From Methanomassiliicoccaceae archaeon (GTDB lineage Archaea; Thermoplasmatota; Thermoplasmata; Methanomassiliicoccales; Methanomethylophilaceae), in NCBI GenBank assembly GCA_016284295.1, contig JAEEOP010000001.1, forward strand, positions 62,001 through 126,000: a stretch of DNA of 64,000 bases, read 5' to 3'. Below are positions 13,531 through 36,447 of this stretch, in pieces. Made by a program: the position numbers and the translations under genes. How positions within the stretch are numbered: the first letter of the stretch is position 1; each line of letters begins with the position of its first letter. A model generated the notes under the pieces. It did not search any database, was not told where the DNA came from, and saw only the letters and a list, made by a program, of their open reading frames with translations.

Positions 13531-13537
13531 CTAGGTT

Positions 13538-13550
13538 GGCGGTATAGTCT
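13538..13550 (-). promoter_or_regulatory. Shared dyad operator in the chlI promoter
   Basis: The minus strand reads AGACTATACCGCC followed by AAC. It matches the shared consensus except for two outer changes. Here the dyad lies between the TATA box (13555-13561) and the start codon at 13530, covering the likely transcription start, rather than upstream of the TATA box. An identical copy is kept in the duplicated segment at 21626-21638. Confidence 0.5.
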
Positions 13551-13650
13551 AACTGTTTAAAGACTTGAGCGAAGGGCGTTCGCCGCATATCGCCTTACTT
13601 CGCTTTGATAGCCCGTTATCGACCCGATGCTAGCATGTTCCCTGCGCCCG

Positions 13651-13980
13651 TTATACATCGTTCTCCCGTTCCAGGAAAGCCTTGTTCACCTTTTTGGACG
13701 AGGGCGGCAAAGGCAGGCTCCTTATTTGACAATCCTCGAAGAAGCAGGGCGCGTAGAGAGGAAGATGTATGATGCCGTTCTCGTCGGTCCCGATGTTGGA
13801 ATCCATCACTTTGTATCCGATCCTATTCCTGTCCTTATCCTGCATCATCGTGCGGAGGGATTTGGCCCTCTTGTTCCTCCCGGACTTCACCTCCATCAGG
13901 ACCGGGGCTCGGCCCATCTCGATTACGAAATCGATCTTCAAGGTGCTGTTCTTCATTGCATAGTATGGAGGATGCATCAT
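13651..13980 (-). pseudogene. C-terminal remnant of a DUF4143-type ATPase
   Basis: A 109-residue frame ends in IGTDENGIIHLPLYAPCFFED and contains IDFVIEMGRAPVLMEVKSGRNKRAKSL. This is the tail of archaeal and bacterial AAA ATPases with a DUF4143 domain. Those proteins are about 400 residues long, so only the nuclease-like C-terminus remains. Upstream, related codons (NSSVLVNLIRR) lie in another frame, indicating frameshift decay. The gene is not expected to be functional. It fills most of the gap between chlI and importer A. Confidence 0.6.
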
Positions 13981-14035
13981 CCAATCAACTAAATACGGCG
14001 TATCAGATTCACGAGCACCGAGCTATTGGTGGTAT

Positions 14036-14048
14036 TGTCCAATAGTCC
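14036..14048 (+). promoter_or_regulatory. Weak half-copy of the shared dyad ahead of importer A
   Basis: TGTCCAATAGTCC is followed by ATC, 25 bases ahead of the ATG of the importer A binding protein. The right half (ATAGTCC) matches the shared operator. The left half does not, and no good TATA box follows. It is listed because of its position. Confidence 0.3.
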
Positions 14049-14072
14049 ATCACTAATCTATCAAGTGATACA

Positions 14073-15383
14073 ATGGAAAAAAACAAGATGATTGCGATTG
14101 TCGTCGTCGTTGTTCTGATAGCAGCCGGAGTCGGGATGTACCTGGCATTCGGTAACACACCCTCGGAATACAGGTCTGCCAACACAGACGGCAGATTGGC
14201 CATTCTCGGAAATGCTGATGAGAACGACTATCTGGACGATGCCGATCTGAAGAAGATCGACGAGATGATCAAGGACAAGAAGTACAGCAATATGGCGGAT
14301 GCCAACAACGACGGTGTCGTCGATGCCAAGGACAAAGAGATGGTCCAGAACATGATTGACATCAAGAAGTACAACAAGGATAAGAAGGACTCAGAGAAGA
14401 AGACCATGACGGTCAACTACATCGGAGTCGATAAGGACATCCTTAGCGGAAAGTACCCTGTCAACAAGATCATCATCTCTGGAACGCAGAGGTCCCTGGG
14501 TCTGGCCATTGCGATCGGCGCCGGCGACAGAGTCGTCGCTCTGAACGACTACGTGTTCCAGTACTGGGATGAGAACTTCTTCAAGGCCTACAAGAACCTC
14601 CCGTCCATCGGTGACAGGAAGACTCCTGACCTTGAGGCGACCATGCAGATCAGTGCCGACACCATCTATGCCGGTTCCGTATCCAAATACGCCGTCAACA
14701 TCCCCGAGAATGTCCTCGGATCCAAGCAGGTCCTTAGGATGGTTTCGTACGAGGATGGAAGGCTCGCAGAGGGAGCCCTCATGCTGGGATTCTTCACGGA
14801 CAATGATGCCGGAGCCCAGAAGTACGTCAAGTGGATGGATGACACCATGAAAGCCGTGAACGACAAGCTGTCCAAGGTCAAGGACCCCGCAGCGACCAGG
14901 TTCTACCTCGGTACCCCCACATACATGTACGCTCAGCTCGACGGAGTGTCCACCGCGTTCACCAACTCCAAGGCGACTAACATCGGAAACATCATCGTCA
15001 CCAGCCCCACCGCCGCCGGAATGTCCACATCCAAGTGTATGGAGGACATCGAGAAGCAGAACCCCGGATACATCATCGGTGGAAAGTACATGTACACGCA
15101 GAACACCTTCGACGAGGTCAAGGCCGTGTACAACGGAATGGACTGGTCCAAATTCGCAATCACAGATGCTGTTAAGAACAACAACATCTACATGGTGAAC
15201 TACGACCTGCCCTTCTGCATCCACACCTACATCGCATGCAGCATCTTCTTCCCGGATCAGTTCTCCCAGGACGATCTGACCAAGATGATCACCGACTACC
15301 TCAAGAACTTCACGGAAGCGGGAGATTACGAGTTCAAGCTCTATCACTTCCTCTTCACTCCTGAGGATGCGAAAACCGCTTGA
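14073..15383 (+). CDS. Importer A substrate-binding protein with dockerin-like repeats
   Basis: A 436-residue membrane-anchored binding protein of the BtuF/FepB class. Residues 5-26 form an N-terminal hydrophobic anchor with no lipobox Cys. Residues 47-95 hold two dockerin-like calcium loops: a loose one at 47-58 and a canonical D76-x-N-x-D-G-x-x-D84-x-x-D87. The binding fold follows from about residue 110. It should capture a metal chelate (corrinoid, siderophore-like or tetrapyrrole) outside the cell and deliver it to the permease at 15434. It is first in an operon with permease, ATPase and CobN2. A G+C hairpin after its stop may set a high binding-protein-to-permease ratio. Confidence 0.88.
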   Translation: MEKNKMIAIVVVVVLIAAGVGMYLAFGNTPSEYRSANTDGRLAILGNADENDYLDDADLKKIDEMIKDKKYSNMADANNDGVVDAKDKEMVQNMIDIKKYNKDKKDSEKKTMTVNYIGVDKDILSGKYPVNKIIISGTQRSLGLAIAIGAGDRVVALNDYVFQYWDENFFKAYKNLPSIGDRKTPDLEATMQISADTIYAGSVSKYAVNIPENVLGSKQVLRMVSYEDGRLAEGALMLGFFTDNDAGAQKYVKWMDDTMKAVNDKLSKVKDPAATRFYLGTPTYMYAQLDGVSTAFTNSKATNIGNIIVTSPTAAGMSTSKCMEDIEKQNPGYIIGGKYMYTQNTFDEVKAVYNGMDWSKFAITDAVKNNNIYMVNYDLPFCIHTYIACSIFFPDQFSQDDLTKMITDYLKNFTEAGDYEFKLYHFLFTPEDAKTA

Positions 15384-16535: not shown

Positions 16536-17360
16536 ATAAAGGTAGAACTGGAATCGCTCGGTTTCAGTTACAAGGGTCAGGACAGCGTCCTCCGGAACAT
16601 CGATCTGACGATAGACGAGCCCGGCCTGATATGCATCATCGGCCCCAATGGAGTGGGCAAATCCACGATGGTCAAATGCATGAACAAGCTGCTCATCCCA
16701 ACTGCGGGAAAAGCGGAGCTGGACGGCAGGGAGGTCAAGAGCTATTCCCTCAAGGAGCTTTCCACACGCGTCGGTTTCGTGCCTGCGACCTCCTCCGATT
16801 CATTCTCCATGACCGTGGCAGACACGGTGCTGATGGGGAGACATCCCTATGCGAAACTGGGCTCCGAAAAGGAAGATATGCATAAGGTGTACGAGGTCCT
16901 CAAAGCGCTGAACATCACCCACCTGGCGCTCAGGAACTACAACGAGCTGTCAGCAGGACAGCACCAGAAGGTCTCGATCGCGAGAGGGCTGGCGCAGGAA
17001 CCGCAGATTCTGATCCTGGATGAACCCACTGCCAACCTGGATGTCAGGCACCAGGTCCAGGTGATCGAGCTCCTGCAGCGCGTCTCCCATGAGAAGAACA
17101 TCACGATAATAATGATCAGCCATGAACTGAACGTGGCATCGAAGTATGCCGACAGAGTCATAGTCATGTCCACCCCCGGGATCATCTACAGGACGGGGAC
17201 GCCGAACGAAGTGATCACGGAGGACACCGTCAGATACGTCTACGGCATGAACTGCAGGATCATCGATGACTGCGGCAGACCGCACGTGATCCTCGGAACT
17301 CCTCTATCGGATGAAGAGATCAGAGAGCTCCACAAGGATGAGAACGACCTCGTCGGATGA
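16536..17360 (+). CDS. Importer A ATPase, BtuD-like, with apparent ATA start
   Basis: ATP-binding subunit of about 274 residues: Walker A GPNGVGKST, signature LSAGQHQKVS, Walker B ILILDEPTANLD, H-loop MISHELN. The domain is complete only if translation starts well upstream of the GTG at 16653, because the frame VELESLGFSYKGQDSV before it is the normal first strand of these ATPases. No ATG, GTG or TTG occurs in that frame between the permease stop and Walker A. The codon where ATG is expected is ATA at 16536 (IKVELESLGF), eight bases after a GGAGGT. This is either a non-standard start, a one-base mutation or a sequencing error. It overlaps CobN2 as ATGA. Confidence 0.82.
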   Translation: MKVELESLGFSYKGQDSVLRNIDLTIDEPGLICIIGPNGVGKSTMVKCMNKLLIPTAGKAELDGREVKSYSLKELSTRVGFVPATSSDSFSMTVADTVLMGRHPYAKLGSEKEDMHKVYEVLKALNITHLALRNYNELSAGQHQKVSIARGLAQEPQILILDEPTANLDVRHQVQVIELLQRVSHEKNITIIMISHELNVASKYADRVIVMSTPGIIYRTGTPNEVITEDTVRYVYGMNCRIIDDCGRPHVILGTPLSDEEIRELHKDENDLVG

Positions 17361-20300
17361 TCGGCATGAGGATGATCAACATCGATGTCAGGGTCAAGGA
17401 CGGAGTGTCCCTGATAACCGAAAGGAATGAACTGTCCTCCGAAGGGCATCCCATCGACCTCATCGAATACGCTTCCGATACACTCGATACGGATAGTACT
17501 GCGATGGATCGCATCTTGTCTTCCGTTCCGAACACCGATCTCATAGTCATCAGGCTGACCGGAGAGATGACCCTCTTCAAAAGATGGGAAGTCCTCAAGG
17601 AAAAGGCGGATGAGCACAGTGTGCCGATACTCATCGTACACAACACCCCATCCAAGACGTTAGGCTATGAGGGATTATCCGGACTTCCGCACGATGAATT
17701 CTCGTCTGCGACCAGATACCTCACTCTGGGAGGCCACCGCAATCTCCTCGGCTTCCTGAAATGGTCCCTTAACTACTTCGATCATCAGGGTTTCGAACTG
17801 CCGGAGCCTTACATCCCACCAGCCCAGGGGGCGTACTACCCTGGCATGGAATCCACGGATATTGCAGACTACATCTCGAAGATGGACAGGACCAGGCCTG
17901 TGATACTCGTGCTGTTCAGTCAGCGCAAATGGAACTCAGGAAGGACGGAAGGGGTCGACAGCATCACACACGCCATCGAGAGAAAGGGAGGGACCCCTCT
18001 ACCGATATTCCTGAACTATGCCGCCAACGCAGAGACGGGCTGCATAGGGATACGCAGGATCATCGACGACTATCTTCTGGCGGATGGGGAACCGATAGTC
18101 GATTTCGCCATAAACATGATCAGCTCATCGATCACCAGGGAGGCGAAGGCCAGATCGGACGATCCCGATGACCCGTTCCTGGAACGCCTCAGCGTCCCTG
18201 TCATGCAGACCCCCACACTCGTATACACTGAGGAGAAATGGCGCAAGGACACCTACGGTCTGACGAATGCGGAGATCGCTTATGATGTGGCGTTCCCGGA
18301 ATTTGACGGACAGATAATCTCGATCCCTAACTCATCCACCGAGATCGCGCCCAACGGTTCAAGATATTATTCTCCGATCAGGTCCAGAGTCGATGACATA
18401 GCCGACATGGCGATGATGTGGGCGAAGCTACGTCACAAACAGAATCGCGAGAAGAGGGTTGCGATCATCTTCTACCAGTATCCGCCGAAAGCAGCGCATG
18501 CCGGAGGAGCGGCCGACCTGGACACATTCCAGAGCATCAGGGACCTTCTGGAACGCATGGACAACGAGGGATACAGACTGGATTTCGTTCCGGAGACCAG
18601 CGAAGAGCTTGTGGACAGGATCTTCACCGGCGTAACAAACGATTGGGAATATGTTTCGGATGACGACGTCAAAAGAAGGGCGTCTGCATTCATAGATGCC
18701 GATGTCTATCAGACATGGTTCGACACATTATCGCAGGAGCAGAAAGACTTCATAATTCGTGACTGGGGCGATCCTCCTGGAAATGTCCTTGTCATCGACA
18801 ACAAGATAGCTGTCCCCGGCATTGTGGACGGAAACATCATCATGAGCTTCCAGCCTAACAGGGGCAAGGATATACAATCCGCATACCACAATCACAACTG
18901 CTCGATCCCCCATCAATACCTTTCGTTCTACAGATGGCTGAGATACGGTTTCGGAGCAAACATCGTCATCCACGTCGGCACCCATGGGACGCTCGAGTGG
19001 CTGCCTGGGAAGGGCGTCGGATTGTCGGAGGACTGCAGCCCGGACTATGTGCTCAGCCAATTGCCGAACCTGTATCCCTATGTGATCGGTAACCCCGGTG
19101 AGGGAACCCAGGCCAAGAGACGCAGCTATGCCGTCCTGGTCGACCACATGATCCCTGCGATGGTGAGATCCGGTACATATGATGAGGTGGAAGAACTGGA
19201 ATCCGTCCTCCAGGCCTACATGAGGACCGAGAACATGAAGACTGGTGACCAGCTCGAGATCATGAAGCAGGACCTCTTCGACGTGTTCAAGAAGATGGCG
19301 CTGTTCTCGGACATGGGGCTCCCCGAAGATGCCGATGCGGAACAGGTGGCGGCCATCGCCGACGACCTTTACGACTACGTCCTCGAATTCAAGAGCAACA
19401 TCATCAAGGATGGTCTGCACATACTCGGGAGACCGCCGACGGATGAAAGACTGAACGAGATGATCTATTCCCTCACCAGACTCAGGAACGGAAACATCCC
19501 CTCCTTGACGGAATCGGTGGCAAAGTGCCTCGGCTACGACTATTCTCAGCTCAAGAAATCGCCTTCCTCACTGGATGAGGACACCGGCAGATTCAACGGA
19601 GAGATCATCGACGATATTGAGGACCGGTCCTTCAGATTGATCTCCGATGTAACGGCGGCTGGCTGCGATCCCGGAAAATGCCTTGAGATCGCTGCAAGAG
19701 CATATCCTGAGGATAATGCCGATCTGATAGAGGCGATCAGATTCATCTGCGAAGAGTTGAGCCCCAACATCTCCAGGATTACCGAAGAACTGGATAGTAT
19801 GATGGAAGGGATGGAGGGCAAATACGTCAGACCTGGACCTTCGGGATGTCCCACTAGAGGCAGGGCCCAGATACTGCCCACTGGAAGAAACTTCTATACT
19901 CTGGACCCGGAGGCCGTACCGTTCCCGGCAAGCTGGGAGCTCGGAAAGAGGATGGCGGATCAGCTGATTGACCGCTACAAGGAGGAGAACGGCGCATATC
20001 CCGAGAGCATCAGCATAGTCATATGGGCAACGGACACGATGAAGACGGGAGGTGACGATGTCGCATACATACTATGGCTGATGGGCGTGCGTCCCGTGTG
20101 GGGAGGATACGGCAACAGGGTGATGGGTCTGGAGATCGTACCACTGGCAGAGCTCGGAAGGCCCAGAGTGGATGTCACCGTCAACATCAGCGGACTCTTC
20201 AGGGACACGTTCCCGAACCTTACTGACATGATCAATGAGGCGGTCACCATGGTGGCCGATCTGGATGAGACCGACGAGGAGAACAGAATCCGTGCGCATT

Positions 20301-21199
20301 ACAGGCAGGAGGTCCTGGAGGACACCGCTAAGGGGATCCCGCAGGACGAGGCCAGGAGGAACGCCCTCACTAGGGTGTTCGGAGCGACTCCGGGACAGTA
20401 CGGGACAGGAGTCAACGTGCTGATATCCACATCCGGATGGGAGCACCGCAAGGAGCTAGGCGACTACTACATCGATGTGGGCTGCTACGCATACGGCCAA
20501 GGCTCCGACGGTGTGAAGAGGGAGGATCTCTACAGGAGGAGGCTGTCCAAGACATCGGTAACTGTCAAGAACAGCACCAGCCGCGAATACGACCTGTTCG
20601 ACAACGATGATGTCTTCCAATACCTGGGCGGTCTGAACTCGGCTGTGGAATCTGTGACTGGCAAGCTGCCAATGTCCGTGATAGGATGCTCCGCGAATGT
20701 GGATGACCCCGTCCTCAGGACGATCCAGGAGGAATCCCACTACGTATTCAGGAGCAAGGTGCTGAATCCCAAATATGAGCAGGGTCTGAGAAGGCACGGG
20801 TTCAGAGGCGCTACCGAGATCCTCAAGATGTTCGAATACGTGTTCGGATGGGATGCCACGTCGGACATCATCGAGAATTGGATGTATGGCCGCATGGCCA
20901 CCGATTACATCCTGGAGGAAGATGTCAGGGAGTGGATAGAGAAGGCCAATCCGTTCGCCCTGCATGATATGATCGATGTCCTGATGGAGGCTCATGAACG
21001 CGGTATGTGGGAAACGTCAGATGATCTCCTCAAACAGCTCCAGGAGATCTACATGGACAACGAGGAGATACTCGAGGAACTGACCGATAGGCAGAATTTC
21101 CACCGATCAATACTATCCGGCTCGATGCAAAATCATACATCACGAACAGATACATCATCCCCTTCGTCACGCATGTTATTGCCTTCAATGGACGAATGA
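17357..21199 (+). CDS. CobN-type metal chelatase large subunit (CobN2)
   Basis: A 1280-residue CobN/BchH family protein with HVGTHGTLEWLPGKGVGLSE, PYVIGNPGEGTQAKRR, GPSGCPTRGRAQILPTGRNF, WATDTMKTGGDD and FGWDATSDI. It is cotranscribed with importer A and overlaps its ATPase as ATGA, so import and chelatase action look coupled. The other paralogues end at a DR dipeptide after a helical tail. Here the same point (ELTDR, near 21092) is followed by about 35 polar, low-complexity residues that read into the decayed insertion region. The natural stop therefore appears to have been lost. No dyad is seen at its own start, so it probably depends on the importer A promoter. Confidence 0.9.
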   Translation: MIGMRMINIDVRVKDGVSLITERNELSSEGHPIDLIEYASDTLDTDSTAMDRILSSVPNTDLIVIRLTGEMTLFKRWEVLKEKADEHSVPILIVHNTPSKTLGYEGLSGLPHDEFSSATRYLTLGGHRNLLGFLKWSLNYFDHQGFELPEPYIPPAQGAYYPGMESTDIADYISKMDRTRPVILVLFSQRKWNSGRTEGVDSITHAIERKGGTPLPIFLNYAANAETGCIGIRRIIDDYLLADGEPIVDFAINMISSSITREAKARSDDPDDPFLERLSVPVMQTPTLVYTEEKWRKDTYGLTNAEIAYDVAFPEFDGQIISIPNSSTEIAPNGSRYYSPIRSRVDDIADMAMMWAKLRHKQNREKRVAIIFYQYPPKAAHAGGAADLDTFQSIRDLLERMDNEGYRLDFVPETSEELVDRIFTGVTNDWEYVSDDDVKRRASAFIDADVYQTWFDTLSQEQKDFIIRDWGDPPGNVLVIDNKIAVPGIVDGNIIMSFQPNRGKDIQSAYHNHNCSIPHQYLSFYRWLRYGFGANIVIHVGTHGTLEWLPGKGVGLSEDCSPDYVLSQLPNLYPYVIGNPGEGTQAKRRSYAVLVDHMIPAMVRSGTYDEVEELESVLQAYMRTENMKTGDQLEIMKQDLFDVFKKMALFSDMGLPEDADAEQVAAIADDLYDYVLEFKSNIIKDGLHILGRPPTDERLNEMIYSLTRLRNGNIPSLTESVAKCLGYDYSQLKKSPSSLDEDTGRFNGEIIDDIEDRSFRLISDVTAAGCDPGKCLEIAARAYPEDNADLIEAIRFICEELSPNISRITEELDSMMEGMEGKYVRPGPSGCPTRGRAQILPTGRNFYTLDPEAVPFPASWELGKRMADQLIDRYKEENGAYPESISIVIWATDTMKTGGDDVAYILWLMGVRPVWGGYGNRVMGLEIVPLAELGRPRVDVTVNISGLFRDTFPNLTDMINEAVTMVADLDETDEENRIRAHYRQEVLEDTAKGIPQDEARRNALTRVFGATPGQYGTGVNVLISTSGWEHRKELGDYYIDVGCYAYGQGSDGVKREDLYRRRLSKTSVTVKNSTSREYDLFDNDDVFQYLGGLNSAVESVTGKLPMSVIGCSANVDDPVLRTIQEESHYVFRSKVLNPKYEQGLRRHGFRGATEILKMFEYVFGWDATSDIIENWMYGRMATDYILEEDVREWIEKANPFALHDMIDVLMEAHERGMWETSDDLLKQLQEIYMDNEEILEELTDRQNFHRSILSGSMQNHTSRTDTSSPSSRMLLPSMDE
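21105..21195 (-). pseudogene. Possible IS3-type transposase (integrase core) remnant
   Basis: On the minus strand a short frame reads AITCVTKGMMYLFVMYDFAS followed by SRIV. This resembles the integrase core of IS3-like transposases around the second catalytic Asp (usually DITYI, a loop, then a hydrophobic strand, D, and S-R-R/K-I-V). Nothing else of the element is recognisable. It overlaps the 3' extension of CobN2, which fits an old insertion that removed the CobN2 stop. The match is short. Confidence 0.35.
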
Positions 21200-21442: not shown

Positions 21443-21618
21443 GCGTTCGCCTTGGCGGCCTTTATCATCGTGATGTCCGCCCTATGTCCGTCAATACCAA
21501 ACGAGGTTGTGATCGTGACAATCGCCTTGATTATCGAATTCAGCAGAAGGGCTTTCTTCATATCTTCCTGACCTACAATCGAGACGAAGGGGAACAGCAA
21601 TTTCTCCATAGGATGCAC
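21443..21618 (-). pseudogene. Internally deleted chlI copy
   Basis: The first 27 codons match chlI exactly in protein (MHPMEKLLFPFVSIVGQEDM...LLLN). The frame then jumps to SIIKAIVTITTSFGIDGHRA, which in chlI lies about 220 residues later, so Walker A, Walker B and the sensor are missing. 21538-21649 match 13450-13561 with one difference, including the promoter and dyad. 21443-21534 match 12641-12732 with about five differences. The fragment cannot encode an ATPase. It suggests that a second chelatase motor gene once stood beside CobN2. Confidence 0.85.
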
Positions 21619-21625
21619 CTAGGTT

Positions 21626-21638
21626 GGCGGTATAGTCT
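21626..21638 (-). promoter_or_regulatory. Duplicated chlI promoter and dyad
   Basis: GGCGGTATAGTCT on the plus strand is identical to the copy ahead of the intact chlI, as are the neighbouring TTTAAAC box and the start region. With only a broken gene behind it, it could still bind the regulator and act as a decoy, or simply be a recent relic. Confidence 0.45.
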
Positions 21639-21803
21639 AACTGTTTAAAAAGGAATTATATGAGGGCGATTCATCTGAGGCTCCAGATGTGTGGACGCCA
21701 GTAGAGGCAACCCAACACATTCAATGAAAACAATGCTACGGAAGTTCTCAGCCATTCAAGACCGAACTACGGAACCATCGATCCTCTCGAACACAAGCTA
21801 TGA

Positions 21804-22235
21804 TTATTCAATGCAATCGTAAATGGTCCTGATAAACTCGTCACGGCCCTCATCAGTAATCTGCTCCTTATCAGACGTGTGATAAGCCTTGGCGAATGCG
21901 AGGACGTTTCCCTTACGTCCTGTGAAATACAGGAATCCGCCCATCTTTCCCATCAGATTATAATTCAACATGCAAGCGTAGTAATCGTCGAAACCGTAGG
22001 GGCAGTCGAAATCGACCATCTTGCCCATAGGCGTCACCTTCTTGCGCTTGTTCTCTATGAAATCGACCTTCTTCGTGTAAGAATCAACGATGTCCTCGCA
22101 GACCTCGTAGGTAACCATATTCTCGTTGTCGCCGTCCGGAGATATCGCCATGCCGTCGTCTTCCTCGAATCTTCCGAACATGCCATCATATCTTGCAATG
22201 AATTCATCAAGCATCTCTGCGGATGTGGATTTCAA
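21804..22235 (-). CDS. Small protein related to the repeat unit of its neighbour
   Basis: A 143-residue protein with no signal peptide or membrane span. Its ARYDGMFGRFEEDDGMAI start and GGFLYFTGRKGNVLAFAKAY core follow the same plan as each repeat of the upstream secreted protein (SYDGVFGPFTKEDGAT ... FSLFYFVTYVGDVVIQS). It therefore looks like a single, cytoplasmic copy of that domain. It starts 54 bases after the stop of that gene and is probably cotranscribed with it. I do not recognise the family. Confidence 0.7.
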   Translation of the reverse strand: MKSTSAEMLDEFIARYDGMFGRFEEDDGMAISPDGDNENMVTYEVCEDIVDSYTKKVDFIENKRKKVTPMGKMVDFDCPYGFDDYYACMLNYNLMGKMGGFLYFTGRKGNVLAFAKAYHTSDKEQITDEGRDEFIRTIYDCIE

Positions 22236-22288
22236 GTTATCACCATGGTGAAAGGCGATGGGATGCCCTGAGGCACCCCATCTTAGGA

Positions 22289-23755
22289 TCAGGCAGAGAT
22301 CGCGGCCTTGATGGCTGCGAACATTGTGTTGATGTCATCGACAGTTGCGAATCCCGTGTTCTTGTACTGGTAGGATGTTGCTCCATCGACGACGATGTCT
22401 CCCTCGTAGGCGACGATGTACAGCATGCTGACATTGGATGATCCCATCGTCCTGCTCTTCATGAATGCGTAGGCACCGTCAAGACCGTCATAGGAATCGA
22501 CCGTCACCACGGTATAGGAACCGGGATCGGTGCTGATCGAAGCGACGAGACTGTCGAATGCCTTCTTAGCGTCTGCGGAAACATCGAAGACCATGTCCCT
22601 GGGCTTGCTGACTGTGGCGCTAGCCACATTGTCCGTGGCGGTGTACGTGCCGAAGGCTCCGGAATAGTTCTTGGCGAACTTGGCGGCTGCCTCGGATGCC
22701 TTGGGGTCGGACACGGTAACAGAATCCACTCCGACGGTCTTTCCGACGGCGCTCAGGATATCCTTGATATCGTCTACTGTGGCGAGCCCGTTCGGCTTGT
22801 AGAGGCCGTTATCTACGGACTGGATGAGAATGTCGTCGACATATGCGGCGAAGTACAGCAGGGTGAACTTCGTCATGGTTCCCATGACTACGTCGAACTT
22901 GACAGCAGTGGCGGCATCGAATCCCGAGATCTTCAGGAGAACGGGCTGCGCACCCATCATCGCGCCCTTGCTCGAGATGGTCTTGGAAAGAGCCTCGTAC
23001 TGGGTTGCGGCATCGGCTGCCCTCTTCCATGATACCTTGCTGTATGCCAACCTCTCACTGTCGTTCTTCTTGGTCGCAGTAGCAGAATCGTCGGTAGCGC
23101 CCTCCTCCTTGGTGAAGGGTCCGAACACACCAGTGTAGGAACCTACGAACGAATCCACATAATCGGAGACGGGATCCGCCGGGATTGTCACCTTGACGGA
23201 ATTGACACCGACGGTCTTCGCGACAGCTGTCAAGACCGCACTCATTTCCTCCTCGGTAGCGGCCTGGTCGGCCTTGTAGAGGCAGGAATCGTATGATTGG
23301 ATCACGACATCGCCCACGTATGTCACGAAATAGAACAGAGAGAATGTTCCCATCGTTCCGATTGTGACGTCGTACTTCATGGCCGTGACGTTGTCGAGGC
23401 CGGTTACTTCGAGTACTATGGGCTTGGCACCCATCAGCGTCGTCTTTGCCAGGATACCGTCGGCAACCTTCTTGTAATCGGATGCTGCGGATGCGCTCTT
23501 GGTCCAGGTTATCTTGCTGTATGCCAGCCTGTCGCTGTCGTTCTTCTTGGTCGCGGTAGCGGCATCCTTGGTCGCTCCGTCCTCCTTGGTGAAAGGTCCG
23601 AATACACCGTCATAGGAATCGACGAATGAATCCACCTTACTGTCCATGTTCTGGGATTTGTCGTTCCCGTTTCCATTGAGGTAGACGACGGCTATCGCCG
23701 CTATGATGACGACCGCCACCACCGCAATGATAAGAATTGCTTTTTTACTGTCCAT
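22289..23755 (-). CDS. Membrane-anchored protein with three tandem repeats
   Basis: A 488-residue protein. Residues 5-27 form an N-terminal hydrophobic anchor. Three repeats of about 145 residues follow, beginning at SFVDSYDGVFGPFTKEDGAT, SFVGSYTGVFGPFTKEEGAT and KFAKNYSGAFGTYTATDNVA. Each continues through KK/PR-D, a charged helix, a KYDVTIGTMGTFSLFYF-like strand pair and an (A/V)DDI..(L/M)..(A/V) helix. The repeats should lie outside the cell. The gene is divergent from the importer B binding protein, sharing the 23756-23924 region, so it may respond to the same signal. The family is unknown to me; a surface binding or cell-envelope role is only a guess. Confidence 0.8.
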   Translation of the reverse strand: MDSKKAILIIAVVAVVIIAAIAVVYLNGNGNDKSQNMDSKVDSFVDSYDGVFGPFTKEDGATKDAATATKKNDSDRLAYSKITWTKSASAASDYKKVADGILAKTTLMGAKPIVLEVTGLDNVTAMKYDVTIGTMGTFSLFYFVTYVGDVVIQSYDSCLYKADQAATEEEMSAVLTAVAKTVGVNSVKVTIPADPVSDYVDSFVGSYTGVFGPFTKEEGATDDSATATKKNDSERLAYSKVSWKRAADAATQYEALSKTISSKGAMMGAQPVLLKISGFDAATAVKFDVVMGTMTKFTLLYFAAYVDDILIQSVDNGLYKPNGLATVDDIKDILSAVGKTVGVDSVTVSDPKASEAAAKFAKNYSGAFGTYTATDNVASATVSKPRDMVFDVSADAKKAFDSLVASISTDPGSYTVVTVDSYDGLDGAYAFMKSRTMGSSNVSMLYIVAYEGDIVVDGATSYQYKNTGFATVDDINTMFAAIKAAISA

Positions 23756-23868
23756 GTAACCACTGTTGTAAGCAGATGGAGGTATTACCCAACTCCTTTG
23801 ATTTAACCGTTACCAGGTTGTTAAAGGAGAGTTAACGGATATCATCCGAGAATAGGCTGGAATATGAA

Positions 23869-23881
23869 GGATTATACATCC
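23869..23881 (+). promoter_or_regulatory. Shared dyad operator ahead of importer B
   Basis: GGATTATACATCC is a perfect dyad (GGAT-N5-ATCC). It is followed by AAT and a TATA box TTTTAAAT at 23884-23891, about 35 bases ahead of the ATG. It is identical to the copy ahead of importer C at 30771. Because this is a divergent intergenic region, the site could also affect the triple-repeat gene. Confidence 0.7.
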
Positions 23882-23924
23882 AATTTTAAATCCTTGCTCG
23901 CACTCACACGAGGTAGTTGGTCCT

Positions 23925-25007
23925 ATGGCAGATAAGAAGATGATTCTCGCCATCATCGTCGTGGTTGTCGTGATAGCGGCAGCGGCGGTGATACTCATGC
24001 AGGGGAACGGATCGAACCAGCCGGCCCCGGATCCTGACGATAAGCCCACGAAAGAGAAATACACGTTCACTGACGCCAACAGCATCACCCACACTGTGGA
24101 TGTGCCCATCGAGAACGTCTCTGTTGTCCACAAGTACATCCCCATCTTCATGAAGATACTGGGCAAGGAGGACTCCGTAGCCGGACTCGACAACAAGTAT
24201 GGTGCCCGCTTTGCGGAATTCTTCCCCAATCACTACTTCATAGGATCATATTCGGCACCAGAAGGAGAAACAATGGTGTCCAGGGGATCAAATGTCATAC
24301 TGACTCCGGTGACCATGGGTCTGAGCAATGCCGATGCACTACGCCAGTTGGGCATCGAGGTGATCTATCTGGATCTGACGGACCCGTACAAGATAGAGAG
24401 CAACCTCCTGATACTCGCCAAACTGCTGGGCGGAACAGACGACGTGATGAAGAAATACGACACATACATGTCCTACTTCAACGAATGCTTCGATTTCGTC
24501 AAGGACCTGAAGACCGACGCCGATTCCGAAGATGTCTTCGGCCTGTTCATGGCCTCGTCCGGATTCTATCAGACGCACGCCTCGTCCGCCGTCAAGGTCA
24601 TCGAGAGCGTCGCAGGCAAATGTTACACCAATATCATCGACCCGAACACCACCGACACAGTCTACTTCAACCAGAGCAAGGACATCCTGCTCGATGTAGA
24701 CAACAAATACGGGCTCGACTACATGTTCGTATACAGCAACGATACGCCCAAACAGAACTTCGATGCATTCTTCTCGTACGCAGGAACACTGGACTACAGC
24801 AAGCTAACCTGTGTAAAGGAGGGACATCTATTCGCACTCTCAACCGATACGGTGAACGGTGCGATGTCCTGTATATCGGCCATACTCTATGCGGATGCGT
24901 TCGGTGCGGATGTAGGAAATAAGGCTGTCGAGATGCTGAACAAGATGAACAGTGAATTCGGCCTCAAATACAGTACAGAGGACCTTCTGGTGGCATATTC
25001 TGCATGA
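23925..25007 (+). CDS. Importer B substrate-binding protein
   Basis: A 360-residue binding protein of the BtuF/FepB class. It has a hydrophobic N-terminal anchor (residues 6-25), a short Pro/Asp-rich linker (NQPAPDPDDKPTKEK) and then the binding fold, including YTFTDANSITHTVDVPIENV and IPIFMKILGKEDSVAGLDNK. Unlike the proteins of importers A and C it has no dockerin-like repeats. It overlaps the permease gene as ATGA. The operon is driven by a promoter carrying the shared dyad. It likely captures a metal chelate for import. Confidence 0.88.
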   Translation: MADKKMILAIIVVVVVIAAAAVILMQGNGSNQPAPDPDDKPTKEKYTFTDANSITHTVDVPIENVSVVHKYIPIFMKILGKEDSVAGLDNKYGARFAEFFPNHYFIGSYSAPEGETMVSRGSNVILTPVTMGLSNADALRQLGIEVIYLDLTDPYKIESNLLILAKLLGGTDDVMKKYDTYMSYFNECFDFVKDLKTDADSEDVFGLFMASSGFYQTHASSAVKVIESVAGKCYTNIIDPNTTDTVYFNQSKDILLDVDNKYGLDYMFVYSNDTPKQNFDAFFSYAGTLDYSKLTCVKEGHLFALSTDTVNGAMSCISAILYADAFGADVGNKAVEMLNKMNSEFGLKYSTEDLLVAYSA

Positions 25008-26185
25008 CAACCGAGAGCGGGGCACCCGGAAAGATGTCCGAATCTGAGCTGATCGTCAGGGAGATGCAGGACGACATAGAGCACAACAGGATTGAAGGGC
25101 AGTACAGCGCATCCATGCACACCAAATGGATGTTCCTCCTGGCGATGGGGGTAGTCTGCCTGATCGCCTTCGTATGCTCACTAGCTCTAGGTTCGGTGGA
25201 TGTCCCCATATTAGAGACCCTGAAAGCCCTCGGACACATGATCCTGCCTGGGGTCATCGAGGGGCCATCGCAGCAGTACTACAGCGACATAATCGTGAAC
25301 AGCCGTATCCCGCGCACCGTCCTCTGCCTGCTGACCGGAATCAGTCTTGCCGCTGCGGGAACAATCATGCAAGGCCTGCTCAGGAACCCTCTGGTCAGCC
25401 CGTTCACCCTGGGCGTCTCCACCGCCGCTTCGTTCGGAGCGGCACTCTCCATAGTATTCTTCCCTGCAATCATCGGAGCGGCGTACTATGAGACATGGGA
25501 GTTCCTGGGGCTGTCCATGAGTGTGAAGAACATACTGATAGTGATCCTATCGTTCGTGTTCGGCATGTGCAGCATCCTGCTGGTGCTCAAGGTCTCCAAG
25601 AAGGATGCCACCAGGACCACCCTGGTCCTTTCCGGAGTTGTCATAAGCTACCTCTTCCAAGCAGGGATATCGCTTTCCCAGTACCTTTCGGACGATGAAT
25701 CGCTGAGGACCATATCGAATTGGCTCATGGGAGGGATGTGGAACGCCACCTGGAGCGCGGTAACACTGATGATACCTATAATCATCCTCTGCCTGATCTA
25801 CCTGATGAAGACCTCCATAGACATCAACAGCCTGTCCGCTGGAGACGACATCGCGAAGAACGTGGGCGTGGATGTGAATTCACTCAGGAAGAGAGGACTC
25901 ATCGTCAGCACGCTCATCACATCCACATGCGTGGCATTCTCCGGGGTGATCGGGTTCATAGGACTCATGGCCCCCCACATGACGCGCATGGCCATCGGGA
26001 ACGATACCAGATTCGTCCTCCCGGCATCCGCACTAATGGGTGCATCGATCCTTCTCTTCTCGGATATCGTGGCCAGGAAGATCCTGTATCCCGATCAGCT
26101 GCCTGTGGGCATCATACTGTACGTCATAGGAGGGATCTTCTTCATCTGGATGGTCACTCGCAAGAACTGGGGGAGCAGATTATGA
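25004..26185 (+). CDS. Importer B permease, BtuC/FecCD family
   Basis: A 393-residue integral membrane protein. The first 40 residues are hydrophilic, with an acidic helix (SESELIVREMQDDIEHNRIE). The typical family core follows: SRIPRTVLCLLTGISLAAAG, NPLVSPFTLGVSTAASFGA, ISNWLMGGMWN, GVIGFIGLMAPHMTRM and a Trp-rich end. The same N-terminal extension pattern occurs in the permease of importer D, showing that B and D are sister systems. It overlaps both neighbours as ATGA. Confidence 0.93.
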   Translation: MTTESGAPGKMSESELIVREMQDDIEHNRIEGQYSASMHTKWMFLLAMGVVCLIAFVCSLALGSVDVPILETLKALGHMILPGVIEGPSQQYYSDIIVNSRIPRTVLCLLTGISLAAAGTIMQGLLRNPLVSPFTLGVSTAASFGAALSIVFFPAIIGAAYYETWEFLGLSMSVKNILIVILSFVFGMCSILLVLKVSKKDATRTTLVLSGVVISYLFQAGISLSQYLSDDESLRTISNWLMGGMWNATWSAVTLMIPIIILCLIYLMKTSIDINSLSAGDDIAKNVGVDVNSLRKRGLIVSTLITSTCVAFSGVIGFIGLMAPHMTRMAIGNDTRFVLPASALMGASILLFSDIVARKILYPDQLPVGIILYVIGGIFFIWMVTRKNWGSRL

Positions 26186-26973
26186 GGATGGAAGTCCAAG
26201 GATTATGCCAAGGATACGGCAAGGAGAATGTGATATCGGACATCTCCTTCTCAGCCGAGAGCGGAGAACTGGTGAGCATACTGGGCCCTAACGGATGCGG
26301 CAAATCCACACTGATCAAATCCCTGTGCAACGTGATGCGTCCGAGATCCGGACGGATAGACATAGACGGATGCGACATCCTCGGAAAGACGCCGGACGAA
26401 CTGGCCAAGCTGATTGGATATGTGCCGCAGACGATATCGTCCGCTGGATACACCACCGTGTACGACCTCGTCCTGATCGGCAGAAGGCCGTATGTCAAAT
26501 GGAACTACACCACCGAGGACCTCCGCATTGTCGCCGATTCGATGATCACGATGAACGTCAACGCATATATGCGCCAGGACGTCAACAACCTGTCGGGAGG
26601 TCAGAGGCAGAGGGCGTTCATCGCTCGTGCGCTGGCCCAGCAGCCCGCGTTCTATGTCTTCGACGAACCCACCAGCTCCTTCGATCTAAGGAACCAGCTG
26701 GACACCATGAGGATAATGAAATCTCTGATCGAAAGGGAGAACGCATGTCTGATAGTCGCCCTGCATGACCTGAATCTCGCCATCAGATACTCGGACAAGG
26801 TCATCGTGCTGAACGATGGCGGAATCTACGACATGGGAACTCCGGAGAAGGTCATCACACCGACAATGATCAAGGACGTCTACGGTGTCAAAGCGGATGT
26901 GCTAGAGGATTCCCACGGACTGTTCGTCAGATCCTACGATGACGATGACGATAGGATGGAGGACAGGGCCTGA
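26182..26973 (+). CDS. Importer B ATPase, BtuD-like
   Basis: A 263-residue ATPase starting at the ATG at 26182 (MRMEVQGLCQGYGKENVI), chosen because it overlaps the permease stop as ATGA. Walker A is GPNGCGKST, the signature is LSGGQRQRAFIARAL, Walker B is FYVFDEPTSSFD and the H-loop is ALHDLN. The C-terminus ends in an acidic YDDDDDRMED tail. Its TGA abuts the stop of the convergent CobN3 gene to give TGATCA, the same junction found between importer D and CobN4. Confidence 0.93.
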   Translation: MRMEVQGLCQGYGKENVISDISFSAESGELVSILGPNGCGKSTLIKSLCNVMRPRSGRIDIDGCDILGKTPDELAKLIGYVPQTISSAGYTTVYDLVLIGRRPYVKWNYTTEDLRIVADSMITMNVNAYMRQDVNNLSGGQRQRAFIARALAQQPAFYVFDEPTSSFDLRNQLDTMRIMKSLIERENACLIVALHDLNLAIRYSDKVIVLNDGGIYDMGTPEKVITPTMIKDVYGVKADVLEDSHGLFVRSYDDDDDRMEDRA

Positions 26974-29900
26974 TCATCTGTCATCCGTATCCATCTCGAG
27001 ACGTTCCTCCGCTTCGCAGAACGCATCCTTCAGCTTCTCCAGTTCCTCGTCGGTCGCGTCCCAGTAGCCGCGCCTCTCCGCCTCCGAGAACCTCTCCAGC
27101 ATGGAAAGGTAGGCCCAGTTGTTGTTCTCCATCATCCTGCGCCTCATATCCTCATCCGAAACATAGGTCTGCATCATATCGCTGAACACACCCGATTGGA
27201 CCTGACCCGTGGTGGCGGCCAATCCGAGCACATTCTCCAAACGGTCGTTTATGCTCTGGACACCGTGATAGTTCACAGCCAGAAGGCCCTCTATCCATTT
27301 GGGATTGAGGAGCCTGGTCCTGACACCGTGCTCTATGGACCTCTGCAAGCTCGTAATGCGGACCCTCGGACGGCTACCATCGACTACGAAGGCTACGGCC
27401 ATCCTATTGCTGGCCATCTGCACTGATTTGGACAACCCGCCGAGGAACTCGTAGTAGTGGTCCAGATCGATTATCTCTCTGTCGGTGGAATCCCTGATCT
27501 GCGATATAACTTCGACACGCCTGTGATTGAACTCGAGCAGACCGGGGACATCCTCCGCACGCTCGCTGCTTGTATACGCATAGTGCATCGAAGAGACGAA
27601 CGAATCGCACAGCTCATCTTCCTCCTCCCACTGGGAACTGTTCACCAATCCCGTCATCCCAGTGCCGTATTGCCCATCCGCGGGTCCGAACAATCTGCAT
27701 TTTGATAAGGAATCGCACATACCTTCCGACAATCCGGCCCCCCTCAGGAACGAGAGATTGTCCATCGAATGCGAACATATCGGGTTGTCTCCGCCCTCGT
27801 CCAGATCGGATACCATACGGAACAGACCGTCCAGTCCGCCTATCAGCTGAGGGAACATGTCCCTGAAGAAACCGCAGATTGTCACGACGACGTCTACCCT
27901 GGGCCTCCTCAGCTCCTCCAGTGGAATGGGTTCGAACCTGCCGCAGAAATCGCCGTCGTCCCTGACCATCCTCAGACCAAGATATCCGCAAATCTGGCCT
28001 ATGCTCATGCCTTGCGTACGGGATGTCTCCAGCCCCCAGAGGATGAGTCCGGCCGATTCCGGGACCCTTCCTTCCTGCTCGATGAAACTCCTGATCGTAT
28101 CCTCCGCGGCCTGATATCCGCGTTCGAATGCCGAGCGAGTCGGCACCTTGATCGGATTGAACTGCACCAGATTGCGTCCCGAAGGGAGAACATCCGGATC
28201 CATCATCGCATCACCACCGACGGCAGGTTCTATGTACCCTCCATCCAGCGCATGGATCAGATTCCTCATTTCGAGGTCGCTCCTGTATCTTGCGATCAGG
28301 TCATCGTCCGAGAGCTCCGTCCCCGCTTCCCTGATAATCGCCACATACCCTTCCGCCTGTTCGATGGTGGAGGGTTGTCCGAAGACATGGAGACCCTCCG
28401 GGATCAAAGACTCCTTCATAGACAGCAGCTCGTCCTCGAGACTCTCCATCTCCGCAGGCAGCCTCATGGATTCGGCCTTCTCGATTATCCGCTCGGATAT
28501 CAGCTCGGCCCTCCCGGGATCTGTCAACTGAGATTCCCTGTACTCGGCTATGAGGCCCTCGAGCTCGGACAGCTCGCCGTAGAGCCCGCTCCTGATCATA
28601 GGGGGCTGCATATAGCTGATGAGCACGGCATGCGTCCTCCTCTTGGCGATCATGGCCTCGGAGGTATTGCCCGAATAATAGAGATAGAAATGAGGGACGT
28701 TGCCCAGCATCTTATCGGGGAAGCAATCCTCCGACGATGCCATCTCCTTCCCTGGGAGGAACTCCAATGTGCCGTGCGTCCCCAGATGGATTATCGCGTC
28801 TGCCTTGAACTCGTTCTCGATCCAATCGTAGAATGCCGCATACTGATGATGCGGAGGAATGCTCTGATCGTGATATGTCGATGCATCCACGCTGTCGCTG
28901 ACCCTCGGCGGCTGAATGCCTATGAAGACGTTGCCCAACCTGAGACCGGGGATGATGTATCCGTTGCTGTCCGCCATCACCTTCCCCGGAGGATCGCCCC
29001 AATAGTCCGATATGCGCCTGTCATACTGCTTCTTCGGATCGTAATGTATTGCTTTGAATCCGTCATGCCATTTTCCGTCATTCAGGAGTCCGTTGCCGAT
29101 GAATGCATCGATTATCTCGGATGCTTCCATAGGTTCGGTGTCATACCCGGCATCCTTCAAGATCTCCAGGATACGTGACAAGGAGCCGGAACCGTCGAGA
29201 TAGGAACCGCCAAACAGATTGTCCTCGCCTGGCGGATAGTTGTAGGCTATTATCGCCACCTTCTTGTCACTGTTCTGCTTATTGCTGAGGGCGACCAGCC
29301 TTTCTGCCTTCCCGCATATCCTTTCGATCCTCTCTTCCAACGGCACCGTTTCCATAAGGGAGATCGTACCTAGGGGCTCCTCGTGGACTTTCTGGAAACC
29401 TGCTGGAATCGTGCAAAATGCACCGTCCAGCTCCGGCAGGAAGATGTCCAGCATGAACTCCATCGGATCTATGCCTACAGGATCCGCCGACCATTCTTCC
29501 ATGCTCCTCTTCGAGAAGCAGAATGGCGAGATGAGCGGCGCATCTAGCTCCCTCAAGAGCCAATTCGCCGAGACAGAGTCCCCGCCCATGGGCCCTGCCA
29601 TGAACCTGAACGGGAGAAGATTGACGATGACTTTCGGGCTTCCGATGAGCGATCTCAGCTGATCTGTGTTTGAGATGCTGTAGCTGTTCATGGCGATGGG
29701 CAGCACCCTCATGGATTCCGACAGCTTCTCGAATAGCGCTCTGACCACCGCGGTCGACTGATGCGGGTAGTTACTGCCGTTGGACAAGAGGGCCACATCA
29801 TAGCCTTCCTCGGATATCCTCGTGCTGTAGCTCCCTACATCATCGAACTCCCGGAGGGACAACGGGTCCTTGACATACACTCCCGTCCTGCACGGGATGA

Positions 29901-30348
29901 ATTGGGCTTCAGGCAGGCCTCCCACACCCAGATATCTGCTCAGCAGCATGGTGTAGATGAACTCGATATCATGATACTCGGCACGTTTCCACGCCTGGGA
30001 GATGCGTTCGATGGCCTCCGCATCCTCGGGGGAATCCTTCATCCTGCGCTCATCATATCCTCCAAGACGGTTCAGCTGCAACGCCATCCCGCCGATACAG
30101 ATGCGTATCCCCTTGCATGCTTTGACTGCCGATGCTATCCCAGAGTACACGTCCCTGCGTACGCCCATGAGATCGGCAATCACGATATCGGCCGTCGAGA
30201 TGTCATTATAGATTTCCGATTCGGGTGCACCGCCACCGACATAATGAAGATGGAAGTCCGCCCCCTTTCCAGAAAGAGTCTTGCTGAAAAGATCAGACTG
30301 ATATAATGCAGGTCTGGAAACGGATGCCACCGTTATGTGGAGGACCAT
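26974..30348 (-). CDS. CobN-type metal chelatase large subunit (CobN3)
   Basis: A CobN/BchH family protein of about 1124 residues, the shortest and most divergent of the four. It keeps HLGTHGTLEFLPGKEMASSE, YYSGNTSEAMIAKRR and GLAATTGQVQSGVF, where the others have FGWDATSDI. The open frame reaches 30435, but the ATG at 30348 (MVLHITVASVSRPALYQ) matches the paralogue starts and lies about 25 bases behind a CTTTATAA box, so the mRNA is probably leaderless. Several motif residues conserved in CobN1, CobN2 and CobN4 are changed (EFLP for EWLP, SGN for IGN), so its ligand or activity may differ. It converges on importer B and carries a dyad at its promoter. Confidence 0.88.
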   Translation of the reverse strand: MVLHITVASVSRPALYQSDLFSKTLSGKGADFHLHYVGGGAPESEIYNDISTADIVIADLMGVRRDVYSGIASAVKACKGIRICIGGMALQLNRLGGYDERRMKDSPEDAEAIERISQAWKRAEYHDIEFIYTMLLSRYLGVGGLPEAQFIPCRTGVYVKDPLSLREFDDVGSYSTRISEEGYDVALLSNGSNYPHQSTAVVRALFEKLSESMRVLPIAMNSYSISNTDQLRSLIGSPKVIVNLLPFRFMAGPMGGDSVSANWLLRELDAPLISPFCFSKRSMEEWSADPVGIDPMEFMLDIFLPELDGAFCTIPAGFQKVHEEPLGTISLMETVPLEERIERICGKAERLVALSNKQNSDKKVAIIAYNYPPGEDNLFGGSYLDGSGSLSRILEILKDAGYDTEPMEASEIIDAFIGNGLLNDGKWHDGFKAIHYDPKKQYDRRISDYWGDPPGKVMADSNGYIIPGLRLGNVFIGIQPPRVSDSVDASTYHDQSIPPHHQYAAFYDWIENEFKADAIIHLGTHGTLEFLPGKEMASSEDCFPDKMLGNVPHFYLYYSGNTSEAMIAKRRTHAVLISYMQPPMIRSGLYGELSELEGLIAEYRESQLTDPGRAELISERIIEKAESMRLPAEMESLEDELLSMKESLIPEGLHVFGQPSTIEQAEGYVAIIREAGTELSDDDLIARYRSDLEMRNLIHALDGGYIEPAVGGDAMMDPDVLPSGRNLVQFNPIKVPTRSAFERGYQAAEDTIRSFIEQEGRVPESAGLILWGLETSRTQGMSIGQICGYLGLRMVRDDGDFCGRFEPIPLEELRRPRVDVVVTICGFFRDMFPQLIGGLDGLFRMVSDLDEGGDNPICSHSMDNLSFLRGAGLSEGMCDSLSKCRLFGPADGQYGTGMTGLVNSSQWEEEDELCDSFVSSMHYAYTSSERAEDVPGLLEFNHRRVEVISQIRDSTDREIIDLDHYYEFLGGLSKSVQMASNRMAVAFVVDGSRPRVRITSLQRSIEHGVRTRLLNPKWIEGLLAVNYHGVQSINDRLENVLGLAATTGQVQSGVFSDMMQTYVSDEDMRRRMMENNNWAYLSMLERFSEAERRGYWDATDEELEKLKDAFCEAEERLEMDTDDR

Positions 30349-30381
30349 ACCTAGTGATTGGCTATTCGGATTATAAAGAAT

Positions 30382-30394
30382 GGCAGATACGTCC
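30382..30394 (-). promoter_or_regulatory. Shared dyad operator ahead of CobN3
   Basis: The minus strand reads GGACGTATCTGCC, then ATT and a CTTTATAA TATA box (30371-30378), ahead of the preferred ATG at 30348. The left half matches the consensus exactly, and the right half differs at two positions. Confidence 0.55.
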
Positions 30395-30770
30395 GACTGG
30401 ACATATGGTTTATCTTTATCAATCGGACTTAACAAAACTGACCATCGAGGATGCTTTCTTGATCAAATGATTGCTTGAGATCCATTATTTAAATATTGTT
30501 TAAATAAATCAAAAAGTATGTGGGAACTTTTTGCACTGTTGGATATTGATACCTGCTACATAGCGAAACGATCATTCATGAGGCCGTCTCTGCGACCATA
30601 AGTCGAGGGTTCGCCTCCACTAAACGGATTTGTGCATTTTTAGACATATCCTAGTTGAAACACTTGGACAAAATTGAATTGTTGGCATCCAACATCGCCG
30701 TGAAACGTGGTTTTTGGATAATATAGCCAGATGGTACAAAATCATCCAAATCGTAACAAATAGATAGTAC
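30395..30770. other. Gene-free A+T-rich interval between CobN3 and importer C
   Basis: About 375 bases with no convincing frame on either strand. It separates two divergent promoters, each with its own dyad. A palindromic AT tract (TTATTTAAATATTGTTTAAATAA) near 30486 and a tRNA T-arm-like GAGGGTTCGCCTCC near 30605 are the only features I can point to. Neither makes a recognisable RNA gene. Confidence 0.5.
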
Positions 30771-36393: not shown

Positions 36394-36413
36394 CCGTTGC
36401 TTTCCGAGCGGAC

Positions 36414-36422
36414 AGTTTATTA
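36414..36422 (+). promoter_or_regulatory. TATA box of CobN4
   Basis: GTTTATTAT lies about 27-30 bases ahead of the ATG at 36448, fitting a leaderless transcript. The shared dyad is not recognisable upstream of it, unlike at CobN1 and CobN3. Confidence 0.45.
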
Positions 36423-36447
36423 TCCTGTCAATTGGTCCAGTCATCCA

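Follow-up and report, generated by a model that had tools for sequence, protein, structure and literature searches.

An importer-associated domain of Methanomassiliicoccales in an anchored three-repeat protein and a single-copy relative, with a possible role in corrinoid or tetrapyrrole handling

The Methanomassiliicoccales, an order of methylotrophic methanogens found in guts and rumens, depend on corrinoids for their methyltransferases. In a 64,000-nucleotide stretch of the genome of a Methanomassiliicoccaceae archaeon (the window), two adjoining genes beside a FecCD-type importer encode an anchored protein with three copies of a domain (P1) and a small protein with one copy (P2), raising the question of what a single domain does in two such different settings. 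A sequence-only reading had suggested, as one possibility, that a surface trap and a cytoplasmic counterpart serve the same ligand. The analysis reported here gives good support to a real, importer-associated domain, not previously described, that exists in repeated, predicted external forms and in an ancient cytoplasmic form. The domain is small, modelled with confidence and found alongside importers and chelatase-like enzymes, and would provide a direct handle on tetrapyrrole binding.

Repeats, predicted fold and distribution of the domain

The features of the two genes are as follows.

21804-22235, minus strand: P2, 143 aa, one domain copy, TTG start (sequence, relatives, model)
22239-22244, minus strand: GGTGAT, Shine-Dalgarno-like, 3 nt before the P2 TTG (by-eye reading)
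22257-22282, minus strand: stem-loop with an 11-bp stem between P1 and P2 (folding energy against shuffles)
22289-23755, minus strand: P1, 488 aa, three domain copies (sequence and relatives)
22292-22705, minus strand: repeat R3, divergent, about residues 351-488 of P1 (pairwise comparison, profile, tree)
22727-23176, minus strand: repeat R2, about residues 194-343 of P1 (pairwise comparison, profile)
23204-23653, minus strand: repeat R1, about residues 35-184 of P1 (pairwise comparison, profile, model)
23678-23740, minus strand: predicted N-terminal anchor of P1, hydrophobic, about residues 6-26 (by-eye reading; the N-termini of BP_A and BP_B are alike)

Pairwise comparison gave 56% identity between R1 and R2 (E 2e-51), 26-29% between R3 and R1 or R2 (E 1e-6 to 5e-10) and 23-25% between P2 and each P1 repeat (E 3e-5 to 8e-5), and the six pair scores among R1, R2, R3 and P2 were reached by 0 of 500 shuffles. 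The sequence-only reading had described an anchored 488-residue protein with three copies of about 145 residues, followed by a gene for one copy without a signal peptide; this description was accurate, coordinates included, as P1 consists of an anchor and three repeats of about 148 residues, and P2 matches R1-R3 and by eye has no hydrophobic N-terminus. Its anchor would place P1 at the cell surface; the P1 sequence lacks the Cys near the N-terminus that a BtuG-type lipoprotein would have. The stem-loop between the genes could reduce expression of P2 compared with P1; its 76-nt segment has a folding energy of -24.4 kcal/mol (z -1.96), and 8 of 200 shuffles were equally stable.

R1 was modelled from 49 surface copies only and P2 from 10 P2-type copies only, which keeps the models independent of each other. 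Both are confident (R1, pLDDT 95.6 and pTM 0.91; P2, pLDDT 94.5 and pTM 0.89) and resemble each other in the order of their helices and strands, and the best VIA row for each was the PknH sensor domain 4esq (R1, Z 10.2, rmsd 3.8 over 137; P2, Z 9.5, rmsd 3.7 over 132). TiME, DcrB, LpqN, PsbP and Mog1 appeared in both lists of structure matches, the last four at Z 5-8, where a Z below 8 may mean a common arrangement only, and Foldseek E-values were modest for both models. Judged by these common matches, R1 and P2 have one predicted fold, which we take to be Mog1/PsbP-like; unrelated folds for the two proteins did not appear. The likeness to the PknH sensor, TiME, DcrB, LpqN, PsbP and Mog1 is one of predicted fold, with no sequence similarity detected and no functional link. 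A profile of 58 members returned nothing at E <= 10 against all PDB chain sequences, and the members themselves matched no Pfam family of Mog1/PsbP-like fold at E <= 0.1. The heme-binding NEAT domain was absent from their Pfam matches and from the listed fold rows, although absence from such a list is no proof against it.

An iterated profile of the domain gave 64 matches in 33 reading frames of the collected loci, with one to eight copies per protein. The domain is present in 24 of 147 genomes of the order and in only 8 of 389 genomes sampled across the phylum, all eight in the family of the window's genome; within these two sets it was found only in Methanomassiliicoccales. The 58 members had no clear family match in Pfam or NCBIfam, in keeping with the earlier description of the domain as unknown, and we found no account of it among the literature listings searched. 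The Pfam and NCBIfam rows that P1 and P2 did produce (LEA_3b, Shadoo, Rv0361) reflected low complexity or the anchor, scored below their cut-offs and were rejected. A search with the whole of P1, which matched 23 genomes, many through the N-terminal anchor only, was replaced by the domain profile.

Linkage to FecCD importers and the intergenic dyad

The genes of importer B lie upstream of P1 on the opposite strand, as the sequence-only reading had stated, and are followed by a gene for a chelatase-like protein.

23776-23792, no strand: weak dyad copy, 3 mismatches, 20 nt before P1; may be chance (pattern count)
23867-23883, no strand: dyad AAGGATTATACATCCAA, differing from TTGGAT-N5-ATCCAA by 2 mismatches; 41 nt upstream of importer B, 111 nt upstream of P1
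23925-25007, plus strand: BP_B, anchored putative substrate-binding protein of importer B (position, relatives)
25004-26185, plus strand: FecCD_B, importer B permease (PF01032, E 1e-86)
26182-26973, plus strand: ATP_B, importer B ATPase (translation and relatives)
26974-30435, minus strand: BchH_B, ChlH/CobN-like chelatase large subunit (PF02514; PDB relatives ChlH, CobN and HmuS)

Importer B (23925-26973) joins a FecCD permease and an ABC ATPase within one operon, as BtuFCD and FecBCD importers do, judged from PF01032 and the relatives of the ATPase. BP_B had no Pfam match and one weak NCBIfam row (TIGR04281, E 0.004), and FecCD_B scored under the curated BtuC cut-offs of NCBIfam.

This association extends well beyond the window. 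We examined 41 loci, the window included, chosen for matching and not at random, of which 38 hold the domain. Of the 56 repeat-bearing reading frames, 49 have a FecCD permease or its ATPase no more than 5 kb away. The total of 56 includes four short partial matches (L052 6601, L053 9894, L054 9665 and L132 7535) and omits weak domain matches on G000 contig 31 and G040 contig 15 that our own profile did not recover at E 1e-3; contigs G085:C144, G085:C155, G090:C73 and G040:C25 were left out of the locus set. The seven frames beyond 5 kb (two in L045, the P2 of L057, and those of L058, L060, L119 and L130) are mostly near contig ends, and the P2 of L057 lies 5.7 kb from its permease. The order P1, P2, importer, BchH_B recurs in three genomes (G035, G013 and G015) and in part in two more (G043 and G088). 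In five genomes (G080, G084, G092, G090 and G088) a polypeptide encoded between permease and ATPase combines domain copies with a region like the window's binding protein BP_A, and Peripla_BP_2 of Pfam was detected on repeat-bearing proteins of L114 (E 9e-18) and, below cut-off, L048 (E 3e-5); those of L057, L117 and L122 gave no match to it. The presence of domain and binding-protein region on one chain ties the domain to substrate capture.

The window's genome (1.86 Mb in 45 contigs) contains 30 FecCD matches, and a 2024 survey describes BtuC genes as unusually abundant in Methanomassiliicoccales, in five clades (PMC10804542). Some importer-associated proteins carry dockerin type I modules (L057 5424-11117, L114 9629-12694, L117 6770-9091 and L213 1404-2894); BP_A of the window (14073-15383) appears dockerin-like by eye and had no Pfam dockerin match.

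The sequence-only reading had also placed a shared dyad between P1 and importer B, without giving its sequence; the one found there is a match to TTGGAT-N5-ATCCAA with two mismatches. The dyad, with 0-2 mismatches, is present in all six orthologous intergenic regions, where 0 to 60 of 5000 shuffles did as well, and the genome-wide count is 112 matches against 19 for a reversed control; within the window the count of 6 at two or fewer mismatches against 3.5 expected was equalled in 14 of 100 shuffles and is not significant. Among the 29 sites with at most one mismatch, ten adjoin, by eye, binding-protein or FecCD genes (L213, L214, L217, two in L218, L220, L224, two in L234 and L235); others adjoin CbiD/tetrapyrrole-methylase, FeoB, MntP-type or DUF169 genes, and the remainder have neighbours without an evident link. 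Sites in the window at 13968, 23867 and 30769 add to a regulon-like pattern across the genome. A shared dyad makes co-regulation of P1 and P2 with importer B plausible, and its distances make control of the importer likelier than control of P1. We suggest from the sequence pattern that TTGGAT-N5-ATCCAA is an operator, common to other importers, FeoB and corrin-synthesis genes, whose probable target here is importer B, perhaps together with P1-P2; the two mismatches of the window copy and its position closer to importer B than to P1 count against the role for P1 and P2 that we favour below.

A cytoplasmic clade, BchH_B and clues to the ligand

In a tree of nine full-length members, the P2-type proteins form one clade (support 100/99) that spans two families of the order, which argues that P2 is no recent copy of P1. 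Eight of ten P2-type genes have BchH_B on their own contig, and the contigs of the other two (L045 and L060) end close by; in G013, ChlI/ChlD-like genes come after P2. Among the 147 genomes of the order, P2-type genes occur in 10, BchH_B (at E <= 1e-150) in 13 and both in 8 (Fisher p 1.2e-8), or, if a truncated BchH_B gene in G013 is counted, BchH_B in 14 and both in 9 (p 2.8e-10), p-values that are too strong because the genomes are kin. BchH_B lacks a P2 match in 5 of its 13 genomes (G022, G047, G085, G090 and G093), which counts against our favoured account and indicates that P2 is dispensable for BchH_B. P2 alone as a query gave no match in named genomes.

BchH_B belongs by its sequence to the CobN/ChlH/HmuS superfamily and, among its PDB relatives, is nearer to ChlH and CobN than to HmuS; it scored 576.7 bits against the CobN model TIGR02257 (cut-off 822) and 715 bits against the BchH model (cut-off 829). 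Its nearest named relatives are from Candidatus Methanomethylophilaceae and other gut MAGs (roe deer rumen, sheep omasum and horse faeces), and its bacterial relatives often stand alongside binding-protein, permease, ATPase, ChlI and ChlD genes. We scanned 13 bacterial loci, hand-picked from 80 BchH_B relatives, by RNA-family search and found a cobalamin riboswitch just upstream of the first importer gene in six (L140, L142, L183, L185, L187 and L189) and elsewhere in the locus in L143. The scan found none at L149, L150, L179, L180, L203 and L206, of which L180 starts too close to show one, and the seven loci with no riboswitch upstream of the importer count against the account favoured below. 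Unlike the first six, the window locus had no cobalamin riboswitch in the same kind of scan. At L140, where the importer operon carries the riboswitch, the chelatase gene is followed by one for a CbiK-type cobalt chelatase (13877-14482).

Of 37 repeat loci, 19 include a gene that is chelatase-like, ChlI/D-like or NifH/NifD-like, which favours a tetrapyrrole in general; the other 18 contain no chelatase- or NifH/NifD-like gene in the fetched stretch, and these too weigh against our account, as does the lack of a conserved His or Cys for metal coordination among the 58 members. The window itself resembles a tetrapyrrole/metal island, in which four CobN/ChlH-like large subunits (6793-10524 and 26974-30435 on the minus strand, 17357-21199 and 36397-40185 on the plus strand) and a ChlI/ChlD-like pair (10628-13530, minus strand) lie amid several FecCD importers within 64 kb. 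It also encodes a NifH-NifD-like fusion of 715 aa and, beside it, a NifD-like protein of 424 aa (50925-54343, minus strand), the NifH part of the fusion reaching 325 bits against CfbC, below the cut-off of 402. Genes resembling these occur in 8 of the 37 repeat loci, and the genome holds five strong NifH-like matches.

A proposed role and its alternatives

We tentatively favour, with slightly less than even confidence, a role for P1 and P2 as accessories of a FecCD/BtuC-type importer. P1 would sit on the outside of the cell, fixed there through its N-terminal anchor. Its three domains would bind and concentrate a ligand, most probably a corrinoid or some related metal-tetrapyrrole, for the divergent importer B and its substrate-binding protein. 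In the cytoplasm, P2 would handle the imported ligand and present it to, or work with, BchH_B, which may remove, insert or exchange the metal. The idea of a surface trap with a cytoplasmic counterpart is partly supported by the common predicted fold, the FecCD linkage, the fusions and the chelatase-tied cytoplasmic clade; the chelatase link and the fusions, which the sequence-only reading did not contain, are the stronger clues, and the common ligand is putative.

Known systems offer partial parallels. BtuG, a surface B12-binding lipoprotein of Bacteroides (PMC6143338), resembles P1, whose exposure is predicted, as a surface capture protein beside B12-type transport genes, but P1 has an N-terminal helix anchor, a Mog1/PsbP-like predicted fold and a cytoplasmic relative. 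The Hmu heme system with HmuS (PMC12583661) likewise brings a capture protein and importer parts together with a member of the CobN/ChlH superfamily in one locus, and differs in that BchH_B is nearer to ChlH and CobN than to the de-chelatase. An operon of Dehalobacter, with similar ones in Clostridia and Bacilli, pairs a FecCD/BtuC-type importer with CobN/ChlH-like and ChlI/ChlD genes, and the Dehalobacter operon is induced at low corrinoid (PMC4285132). In contrast to the window locus, a profile scan of the bacterial transport-chelatase loci detected no Mog1/PsbP-like repeat.

The ligand might instead be heme, captured by P1, imported by importer B and passed by P2 to BchH_B as an anaerobic heme de-chelatase supplying iron. 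HmuS of Bacteroides and BtuS, both CobN-like, are reported to remove heme iron (PMC12583661; PMC6460266), Met-79 and His-254 being the conserved heme ligands of HmuS (PMC12583661). BchH_B and HmuS are detectably related, and a dyad copy precedes a FeoB gene. We nevertheless find this improbable, given the closer kinship of BchH_B to ChlH and CobN and the cobalamin type of the riboswitches beside its bacterial relatives. A free metal ion or a metallophore, with BchH_B a mere genomic neighbour, seems very unlikely: NCBIfam rows show that FecCD permeases import siderophores too, dyad copies adjoin FeoB and an MntP-type pump, and 43 of the 58 members have a Met-Gly pair, but the domain has no conserved His or Cys and P2 is tied to BchH_B.

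To a different class belongs the suggestion that the domain binds protein and not ligand, joining binding proteins to one another or to the envelope outside the cell, while inside P2 would be part of the chelatase or a factor in its assembly. The PsbP/Mog1/DcrB fold includes protein-binding members, and the copy number of one to eight and the neighbouring dockerin and Ig-like modules would suit such docking. Binding-protein fusions and tandem copies are no less typical of ligand traps, however, and we identified no partner domain, and we give docking little credence. Returning to capture and handling by P1 and P2, a broader version, which we consider rather doubtful, would have the domain family carry tetrapyrroles on both sides of the membrane. 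External tandem copies, free or fused to a substrate-binding protein, would collect tetrapyrroles from the gut, and the cytoplasmic clade would pass them to archaeal ChlH/CobN-like enzymes, with NifH/NifD-like ones nearby in other loci, for re-metallation or remodelling. If true, methanogens would use their many CobN paralogs in the salvage of foreign tetrapyrroles; one report calls the function of archaeal CobN-like paralogs unclear (PMC12583661).

Two minor observations concern the surroundings of these genes. A 4206-residue frame on contig 31 of the window's genome (G000; L122, 1252-13872) combines Listeria-Bacteroides repeats with one weak domain copy (E 1e-9). In the window, a string of about 30 nt, CTAGGTTGGCGGTATAGTCTAACTGTTTAAA, occurs at about 13531-13561 and again at about 21617-21650, flanking the importer A-CobN operon, and is perhaps the end of a mobile element.
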